A stretch of 8,086 nucleotides of DNA from an uncultured Oscillospiraceae bacterium (GTDB lineage: Bacteria; Bacillota; Clostridia; Oscillospirales; Ruminococcaceae): NCBI GenBank assembly GCA_934457235.1, contig CAKSHT010000101.1:1-8086 (forward strand). The letters run 5' to 3'. Made by a program: the position numbers and the translations under genes. Each line of letters starts with the position of its first letter. Position 1 is the stretch's first letter. Shown here piece after piece: positions 3 to 8,086 of the stretch. The notes beneath the pieces were generated by a model. It was not told the DNA's origin, did not search any database, and worked only from the letters and a program-made list of their open reading frames with translations.

Positions 3-302
3 CGTAATCACTGCCCGAATTGTCTGAGCAGTCTGCATGTGGACATAGAGCCGGGCGACCGGCAGTCCGACTGCGGAGGAATAATGGATCCTATAGCCGT
101 GTGGGTACGCAAGGGCGGGGAGTACGCGATAATCCATCGCTGCCGCCGTTGCGGAGCCCTGTCCAGCAACCGGACAGCGGCGGACGACAATCCTATAAAG
201 CTGATGAGCATAGCGCTGAAACCGCTGTGCGAACCGCCATTTCCGATCGAGCGTATTGAGGAACTGACCGAACTTATGGGCGGAGATGGAAGTATAAGGT
301 AG
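3..302 (+). CDS. RNHCP domain zinc-ribbon protein, 5' end cut by the window
   Basis: Ninety-nine C-terminal codons lie in the window and read from base 3 to the TAG at 300-302; the gene starts upstream. The visible part opens with RNHCPNCLSSLHVD, which is the motif that names the RNHCP family, followed by PGDR, a DCGG segment and then CRRCGALSSNR. The two Cys-x2-Cys knuckles (CPNC and CRRC) look like a metal-binding zinc ribbon. The family is small (usually somewhat over 100 residues) and widespread in anaerobic bacteria, but its biochemical role is not established to my knowledge. A GTG at 39 would be an in-frame start but would discard the family's signature, so I reject it. No T-rich terminator follows directly; the hairpin at 323-351 lies 20 nt past the stop. 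Family assignment is by motif recognition and fairly sure; function is unknown. Confidence 0.85.
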   Translation, partial: RNHCPNCLSSLHVDIEPGDRQSDCGGIMDPIAVWVRKGGEYAIIHRCRRCGALSSNRTAADDNPIKLMSIALKPLCEPPFPIERIEELTELMGGDGSIR

Positions 303-1960: not shown

Positions 1961-1989
1961 TTGAAATCCTCCGCCGGATAGGGTATAAT
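1961..1989 (+). promoter_or_regulatory. Sigma-A promoter of the small-ORF/RNA unit
   Basis: TTGAAA at 1961-1966 and a perfect TATAAT at 1984-1989 are spaced by 17 bp. Initiation is expected near 1996, which places the small CCCC-ACC-GGGG hairpin (1998-2008) at the very 5' end of the transcript. Confidence 0.85.
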
Positions 1990-2030
1990 TATATTATCCC
2001 CACCGGGGAAATACATATCAGGAGGTAAAA

Positions 2031-2105
2031 ATGTTTAATTTCTTTAGCTCATGCGGCGCTAACTTCGCTCAGCTCTGCGCATTCCTGAAGTCCCTCTGCG
2101 GCTAA
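2031..2105 (+). CDS. 24-residue cysteine-containing peptide
   Basis: The ATG at 2031 follows a full AGGAGGT ribosome binding site (2020-2026) at ideal spacing and lies about 35 nt past a strong promoter, so translation is likely. The peptide begins MFNFFSSCG and ends FLKSLCG. It has three cysteines (8, 16, 23), five phenylalanines, one lysine (20) and no acidic residue. Hydrophobic residues recur every seven positions (F5-F12-L19 and C8-L15-L22), as expected for a short amphipathic or membrane-associated helix. Codons end mostly in G or C like the neighbouring genes. It is too short for a signal peptide plus cargo. Options are a type I toxin-like or membrane peptide, a signalling peptide, or a leader peptide whose translation controls folding of the RNA after it. 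No family is recognised. Confidence 0.6.
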   Translation: MFNFFSSCGANFAQLCAFLKSLCG

Positions 2106-2280
2106 GTCTGGTCGCGGAAACGCCCGACGGAAGATACGGTTTAGGTGTGCTGAATGCAGTGAGCATAAAAGCGCCAGACGCCGTGCGGCACAGAGCATTA
2201 CAATGTTTCTGTGTAATTAGGAGAGAATCTCCAGATCAGCTTTGCTGTGAAATTGTTGGACTGGTATTTCCAGTCAGTGA

Positions 2281-2308
2281 GCCCGGTTCGCGCCGGGCTT
2301 ATTTTTTT
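2281..2308 (+). terminator. Intrinsic terminator of the small-ORF/RNA unit
   Basis: GCCCGG (2281-2286) pairs with CCGGGC (2293-2298) around a TTCGCG loop, followed by TTA and seven T residues (2302-2308). It ends 22 nt before the -35 of the rpiB promoter. Confidence 0.92.
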
Positions 2309-6970: not shown

Positions 6971-7003
6971 GCAGTGAGTAATGCGCTCACTGCTCGTTTT
7001 TTT
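6971..7003 (+). terminator. Second + strand terminator overlapping the end of the minus-strand gene
   Basis: GCAGTGAG (6971-6978) pairs perfectly with CTCACTGC (6986-6993) around a 7-nt loop, then TCG and seven T residues (6997-7003). The right arm contains the stop codon of the minus-strand gene, and the T-run encodes its Lys-Asn near the C-terminus. It would back up the terminator at 6934-6961 for dut transcripts. Confidence 0.65.
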
Positions 7004-8086
7004 GCTTGTCGTAGTACGCGATGTATTTGTTTGCGATAGGCACTATCTTTTCGTAAGTCGGGTCGCCGTTGTCAACGACTGCGCGGAAAAACGCGTAAAC
7101 GTCCTTGTTGATAACGCGGGAGATACGGTTTGCGATGTATTCGTGCGTCGCGTTCAGCTCCGGATTATCCAGTATATTCAGCGCAAATTCAATAAACTTC
7201 TTCGGCTTGGTGAACTGAAGAAAGTTGCACGCGGTCACTATGCTCGCGTAGAAATTCGGTGAAATGATGATCTCGCCATCACATTCGGTCTCTCCGGAGA
7301 GAAGCGCGTCAAGCTGCGCCTGCGTGAGCTTATCCACCGTGAATACGGATTCCATGATCTCGCTGTCCGGCATATCCTCGCACAGGTCGAGCACCGGACG
7401 GGGGATAACCTTGTTGCTGTAGCTCTTCTTGCGTACCTGCGGGAGTTTTTTCAGCAGCGTGCGGTAGTGACTGGGCTTGTATTCGGAACGCGTTTCGAGG
7501 ATCATTCTCAGCATGTCACGCGGGATAAACTCCAGCGGTATCTTAACCGAAGCGCTGCGGAAGCCGGTGACTCCCTCGTGTTCCAGAGCTGGAACAGCTG
7601 CCGGTGCTGTGGCTTCTGCGGGCTGTTCAGTGGAATCCGCATTTTCTGCCGAAGCGGGTGCAGGCGCGGGAGCCAACGGAATATAGATATCCGTATAAGG
7701 CTCGTTGATTTTTTCTATCACTGCGCATTTATATGGAAGTTTTGCGGCAACGCATGAAACAGCGCCGTGATGTCCCTTCAGCAGCATCGAATGAAGCCCG
7801 GTGACATGGTATACTATGCCCTGTATCTTGCGCGCCTTTACTGCGACGTCTGTGGTCTGCACGGTTTTGGAATCGTATGTATCCAGCGGGGAACCGGGTA
7901 TCAGAAAGCACGGGCGGTACGTCTTGTCCTTGCCGATAGTACGTGAGTGCTCGGCTGTCCCGTGTATCTCGTGAGTAAGATTGTATGCGCCCCAGAAGAA
8001 TGTGCCGGAGCCGTCCGTCGGGTAGTAATCCGAGATGTACAGCGTATAAACTCCGTCCGGGAGCATCGCCAGGATATCGTGAAGCC
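6987..8086 (-). CDS. Uncharacterised protein, N-terminus outside the window
   Basis: The frame stays open from the right edge of the window to the TGA at 6987-6989, giving 365 visible residues. An ATG at 8064-8066 is in frame, but the frame continues upstream (LHDILA before it) and no ribosome binding site precedes it, so the true start is probably further out. I do not recognise the family. Numbering from that internal Met, residues 1-130 are mixed, beta-like, with aromatic-rich text (ISDYYPTDGSGTFFWGAY) and scattered Cys and His but no clear metal motif. Residues 131-162 are a Pro/Ala/Glu-rich linker (LAPAPAPASAENAD and onward). Residues 163-359 look mostly helical, with lysine-rich stretches and a C-terminal run typical of a helical repeat or scaffold domain. 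There is no membrane segment in the visible part. It converges on dut and shares its terminator, so it is transcribed independently. Third-position GC matches the neighbours, so coding is secure although function is not. Confidence 0.8.
   Translation of the reverse strand, partial: LHDILAMLPDGVYTLYISDYYPTDGSGTFFWGAYNLTHEIHGTAEHSRTIGKDKTYRPCFLIPGSPLDTYDSKTVQTTDVAVKARKIQGIVYHVTGLHSMLLKGHHGAVSCVAAKLPYKCAVIEKINEPYTDIYIPLAPAPAPASAENADSTEQPAEATAPAAVPALEHEGVTGFRSASVKIPLEFIPRDMLRMILETRSEYKPSHYRTLLKKLPQVRKKSYSNKVIPRPVLDLCEDMPDSEIMESVFTVDKLTQAQLDALLSGETECDGEIIISPNFYASIVTACNFLQFTKPKKFIEFALNILDNPELNATHEYIANRISRVINKDVYAFFRAVVDNGDPTYEKIVPIANKYIAYYDKQKNEQ

Follow-up and report, generated by a model that had tools for sequence, protein, structure and literature searches.

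The locus studied here raises the question of what is encoded by a compact unit lying between a gene for a major-facilitator transporter (upstream) and rpiB: a peptide, a regulatory RNA, or both. The window, that is, the whole stretch of 8,086 nucleotides that was analysed, comes from an uncultured Oscillospiraceae bacterium, and a sequence-only reading of it had described a self-contained unit with a tiny Cys/Phe peptide followed by structured RNA. Direct reading found each sequence element of that description in place on the forward strand. The promoter, TTGAAA-17-TATAAT (1961-1989, with TTGAAA at 1961-1966 and TATAAT at 1984-1989), agrees with the consensus at 11 of 12 positions and is directly preceded by TTTGCA (1955-1960), which is kept in many relatives and was (nearly) invariant across the first six loci. 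The predicted transcript start carries a stem-loop, CCCC-ACC-GGGG (1998-2008), followed by AAAT, then the Shine-Dalgarno site AGGAGGT (2020-2026) and an ORF (2031-2105; ATG at 2031, TAA at 2103-2105) for the 24-residue peptide MFNFFSSCGANFAQLCAFLKSLCG, with Cys at residues 8, 16 and 23. Behind the ORF, a putatively transcribed stretch with several hairpins (2106-2275), so far peculiar to this genome, leads to an intrinsic terminator (2276-2308) with its stem at 2276-2303 and a T run to 2308. Between 1800 and 2450 there are three promoter-like sites (1.0, sd 0.9, in shuffles), including one of rpiB itself at 2330-2358, and three terminator-like sites (0.7, sd 1.0, in shuffles). No Rfam covariance model matched the unit up to E = 1 when the window alone was scanned, in agreement with the view that no known RNA family fits.

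Our results show that the unit is a real stand-alone gene, too short for standard gene finders. Beside the window, relatives of the peptide gene occur in 26 genomes of related Clostridia, and what they have in common is the front half: the promoter, a small stem where the transcript begins, a Shine-Dalgarno site (an SD-like site is present in 27 of 27 loci) and the Cys-bearing peptide. Nearby genomes were reached through RpiB relatives of the window. A comparison of homologous gaps upstream of rpiB had been proposed, and there the unit was absent from all 12 loci examined (L001 to L012, L001 with only 309 bases in that place); the synteny of L001 to L004 with the window starts only at 2303-2322. 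The position upstream of rpiB is local, and other members have other neighbours. In L002 and L003, an RNHCP-domain gene (window 3-299) lies directly upstream of rpiB; in the window, the transporter gene and the peptide gene lie between these two (compared region, 3-1931), and in G002 and G003 the transporter/peptide-gene pair is found on other contigs. Elsewhere in the window, the gap before the transporter gene contains a perfect inverted repeat, GGGCGACCA/TGGTCGCCC (506-608), in a region with a weak, below-threshold Rfam match to MicX, and the reverse strand (6987-8066) has a 359-residue ORF for which Pfam gave no match at 0.001. Of the seven genomes closest by RpiB identity (83% or more), six carry the peptide gene; it was not found in G001, whose RpiB is 98% identical and which is a metagenome assembly that may be incomplete.

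A search of 16 genomes at the DNA level turned up relatives in five (G002, G003, G004, G006 and G016), which matched the promoter-to-ORF part alone, and missed a sixth (G005) that was later recovered by profile R2. Profile R1, a sequence profile covering the promoter to codon 6, returned 30 loci from 297 genomes of the family; all were read, giving 15 members and 15 other genes, and at E 1.1e-6 or better 10 of 12 loci were members (the exceptions being L108 and L112). When 396 genomes of the family were searched with a pattern, 25 places matched, spread over 23 genomes; 13 of the places (in 11 genomes) are members and 12 are due to chance. This search added G253, G744 and G751, and 6 places matched when the pattern was reversed as a control. 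Within one genus (43 genomes), R2 identified nine members, eight of them at 54.5 bits or more and the ninth (G779) at 30.9 versus 29.6 for a non-member; ten weaker loci were read as other genes. In 295 genomes of the order, its only members were G127 and G035, both already known, with the next score at 30.5 bits and 16 weaker loci read as other genes, and among 199 genomes of the phylum a match at 1e-5 was obtained in the centre genome G003 only. The peptide profile A7 selected the same nine of the 43 genus genomes as the DNA profile, with E-values from 7.8e-12 to 7.4e-7; the next match was at 0.0087, and on reading, the three best of the weak matches, including that one, were spurious. On 247 genomes of the family, A7 recovered five members at E 0.001, all of them already known; two divergent members, G310 and G035, escaped it. 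R1, R2 and A7 contain member sequences, and the scores for those members are not independent. Presence is patchy, with at least 18 of 396 genomes of the family and 9 of 43 of the genus carrying the gene.

The front of the transcript was compared across the 27 loci. The -35 end has TTTGCATTG in 18, and a sense promoter-like site is present in 24. By a permissive search, a 5' stem of three or more pairs is found in 26; for L301, the remaining locus, an inner copy with no -10 box had been taken, and the stem is present by eye. No convincing stem is seen in L118 or L128, and that of L123 is weak. The stem starts 8-9 nt behind the -10 box in 19 of 26 loci and is followed by AAAT in 24 of 26. Its outer pairs are C-G in 21 of 26, and the rest change on both sides, so that the letters vary while pairing is kept (CCC/GGG, GTC/GAC, TGT/ACA, GTT/AAC and CCGTTAC/GTAACGG). 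Single stems are weak, with shuffle fractions up to 0.355, but all of the 23 testable loci were above their own shuffles (mean z 1.40; L301, L110 and L128 were left out beforehand, and L118 has no usable -10 box). Loop length varies between 2 and 99 nt, which speaks against a protein operator; judging from its place, the stem likely protects the 5' end of the mRNA. A terminator follows the ORF in 17 of the 27 loci. In L301 (G744 C215), three stem-SD-ORF units for the same 18-residue peptide stand in tandem at 121-bp spacing behind one promoter, with the stem pairing kept and the loops different. In L110 (G206 C10), the stem loop is 99 nt, versus 5 nt in the near-identical L102, as if an insertion had occurred inside the loop.

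A similar beginning was also seen at other genes. L112 and L113 (G307 and G112; L113 is the weaker R1 match) read as genes for guanylate kinase and have, like the peptide gene, a TTTGCATTGAAA...TATAAT promoter followed by a small stem, and in L124 (G209) a PspA-like (phage-shock protein, by reading) gene begins with the same layout, ACCCGCATGCGGGAAATAAAGGAGG. Across an order, TTTGCATTG-N{19,21}-TATAAT matched in 102 of 394 genomes and was rejected as a marker of membership there; because none of the 30 fetched loci was a member, the TTTGCATTG...TATAAT motif outside the peptide family is mostly an ordinary promoter. In 12 genomes chosen as carriers of the gene, the motif at fixed spacing occurred at 12 places in 11 genomes, 11 of them at the peptide gene and one at another gene (L142). 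A mobile origin was also considered and rejected, as no match of 1945-2110 was found among phage or plasmid records. A start-site pattern gave 21 viral places, none of them a member; nine are 24-codon frames starting MCNFF, with no promoter or hairpin in the 70 bases examined. A separate scan of viral contigs for a motif matched at least 120 places.

The 25 distinct peptides have 17-29 residues and 3-6 Cys, and 21 of them start with Met-Cys (that of the window starts with Met-Phe). For the four peptides scanned, Pfam/NCBIfam profiles gave no family up to E = 10. Two pairs of loci have identical peptides but different codons: L352 and L354 share a 23-residue peptide and differ at seven nucleotides, and L102 and L110 share one of 19 residues and differ at three. 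Every one of these changes falls on a third codon position and is synonymous. Among 200,000 trials of random changes, seven were never all synonymous, and three were so in 0.46%. Other homologous pairs do change residues, the extreme being L081/L083 with 11 nonsynonymous and 0 synonymous codons of 26. Furthermore, in nine loci, including the window, Asn-Phe-Phe is always written AAT TTC TTT, a uniformity that may point to an additional constraint on the RNA close to the start codon.

The hydrophobic moment, by which an amphipathic helix was judged, exceeded that of shuffles in all 25 distinct peptides (mean z 2.29), which are related and hence do not give independent results. The outcome held on a second scale and with Cys set neutral, and the net charge ranges from -1 to +2. 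The simplest reading of the peptides is that they likely form a helix lying on the membrane surface. We favour, with somewhat more confidence than doubt, a stand-alone gene for a conserved Cys-rich peptide of about 20 residues, a predicted amphipathic helix that is likely located on the inner surface of the cell membrane.

Amphipathicity together with small size would also suit a type I toxin, a peptide that damages the membrane when made and is normally held down by an antisense or trans-acting RNA, as had been suggested for this unit. The patchy presence and the three tandem units with identical peptides in G744 are consistent with such a toxin. However, antisense promoter-like sites occur in 8 of 27 loci, compared with 5.6 (sd 2.2) in shuffles, and since they are not in excess, they lend no support to a classical toxin pair. 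Furthermore, the centroid fold leaves the Shine-Dalgarno site unpaired (the minimum-energy fold pairs its last bases), and the near-consensus promoter would give a constant product. We consider a toxin improbable, and it is the patchiness and the triplet that keep it from ranking lower.

A second alternative, also suggested from the layout, is a dual-function RNA, in which a peptide-coding transcript has a structured 3' part that also regulates other mRNAs by base pairing. The long 3' part with its several hairpins is in its favour, and the 321-nt transcript as a whole (1990-2310) has a better fold than its shuffles (z -3.50, none of 100 as good); the fixed AAT TTC TTT would likewise suit an RNA constrained near its start. 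In addition, 15 of 27 loci (for example, L083, L102, L107 and L353) have [GT]ACATA no more than 110 nt behind the ORF, compared with 0.94 in shuffles (maximum 5 in 300) and with 46 of 657 windows from the flanks. However, this motif does not occur in the window locus, in some loci it lies beyond the terminator, and the 3' parts of the relatives vary in both length and sequence. The 3' part alone (2106-2276) folds only modestly better than shuffles (z -1.79, 9 of 200 as good). Above all, a search of the 43 genus genomes, nine of them with the peptide gene, found no relative of 2106-2310 (best E 0.034, over 23 bases); in the rest of the family the comparison of 3' parts was by eye alone. L082 and L083 have the same transporter gene upstream, and their similarity to the window extends across that gene and ends at 2102, the last sense codon. 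Of the two parts of such an RNA, a conserved small ORF is found at the level of sequence through the synonymous-only changes in two pairs, and a conserved non-coding part able to pair with targets was not found in the 43 genus genomes or in L082 and L083. Thus, the structured RNA claimed behind the ORF does not appear to be conserved, conservation stops with the ORF, and we consider a dual-function RNA quite improbable. The recurring RNA feature is the stem at the 5' end, and the 3' RNA of the window is, as far as the genus was searched, not conserved. Because similarity ends with the ORF and the 3' RNA has no relatives in the genus, the comparison points to the peptide as the conserved product under coding selection, and to this extent the tiny Cys/Phe peptide has held up.

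The genes around the unit bear on the two other alternatives. Neighbours vary: the transporter gene adjoins the unit in the window, L082 and L083, a gene for a TspO-like protein does so in L109 (below the curated cut-off) and L307 (by reading), and tRNAs lie upstream in L105, L123 and L353 and downstream in L083 and L109. In three genomes (L104, L106 and L110), a tmRNA gene lies just upstream of the peptide gene. Six of the 25 called downstream ORFs look related to sulfur or iron-sulfur metabolism: cysteine desulfurase-like in L102 and, by reading, in the near-identical L110, radical SAM in L103, RnfB in L105, HydF in L107 and TtcA-like in L118. Only HydF and RnfB reach the curated cut-off, and with no baseline for this count we make no claim of a link. 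A short, Cys-rich product with a Phe-rich start might also be a secreted signal or the precursor of a ribosomally made natural product. However, no recurrent maturation, export or receptor gene was found among the called neighbours (ten proteins named), and the peptides, at 17-29 residues, have no leader segment; we regard this as very improbable. An attenuator leader peptide, sensing the supply of cysteine or phenylalanine for a downstream gene, would account for a Cys- and Phe-rich ORF followed by a terminator and for the cysteine desulfurase-like genes of L102 and L110, but it is highly improbable, because the neighbours are mixed, no partner can be named, no cotranscribed biosynthesis gene recurs, in 15 of 25 loci the ORF called nearest downstream runs in the opposite direction (a few of the called ORFs being spurious), and rpiB in the window has a promoter-like site of its own.

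Returning to the stand-alone gene for a membrane-surface peptide, we propose that the near-consensus promoter would give a short mRNA opening with the stem-loop, which likely protects its 5' end, that the strong, largely unpaired Shine-Dalgarno site would direct heavy translation, and that the terminator would close the unit. The peptide would then sit as an amphipathic helix probably on the inner surface of the cell membrane, where its cysteines might have a redox or metal role at a membrane partner. That role is a guess, because the cysteines show no clear helix face: in 18 of 25 peptides they are towards the nonpolar side, with a mean cosine of 0.11 against a null of 0.01 (sd 0.10). Going further, Cys-bearing peptides of 17-29 residues on the membrane surface might form a previously undescribed family of redox or metal switches acting on membrane or iron-sulfur proteins of anaerobic Clostridia, made from a dedicated cassette of promoter and 5' hairpin, constant in form but variable in genomic position. 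We offer this as a speculation that is unlikely to hold in full.

No description of these peptides was found in the one limited literature collection searched. Together with the Rfam result for the window and the Pfam/NCBIfam results for four peptides, this leads us to consider the peptide family as new within a known kind, the stand-alone bacterial microproteins. The ORF caller of a global microbial smORF catalogue took ORFs from 30 nt up (PMC11364881), and members of the family may therefore sit as unnamed entries in small-protein catalogues. Gene callers pass over genes for peptides of fewer than 30 residues, and it is rare for coding selection to be demonstrated on such genes; for this family, two genome pairs give a synonymous-only signal. 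The point where conservation stops tells a coding micro-transcript from a structured RNA, and the DNA signature of TTTGCATTG, TATAAT and a stem at the transcript start allows members to be found without the peptide. If our reading is true, a hidden but strongly equipped gene of uncultured Clostridia is open to direct tests.

Among known systems, AzuC/AzuCR, TisB and SpoVM are very short, amphipathic, membrane-associated bacterial peptides; none of them is known to be Cys-rich. The window peptide resembles them in shortness and amphipathicity. AzuCR and TisB also have base-pairing or antisense RNA functions, which were not seen for the window unit. VcdRP of Vibrio cholerae is described as a dual-function RNA with a 29-residue ORF (PMC8672173). 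It is similar to the window unit in being one short transcript with an ORF of comparable length (29 and 24 residues, respectively), and it differs in being a dual-function RNA, whereas in the window unit it is not the RNA behind the ORF but the peptide that appears to be conserved.
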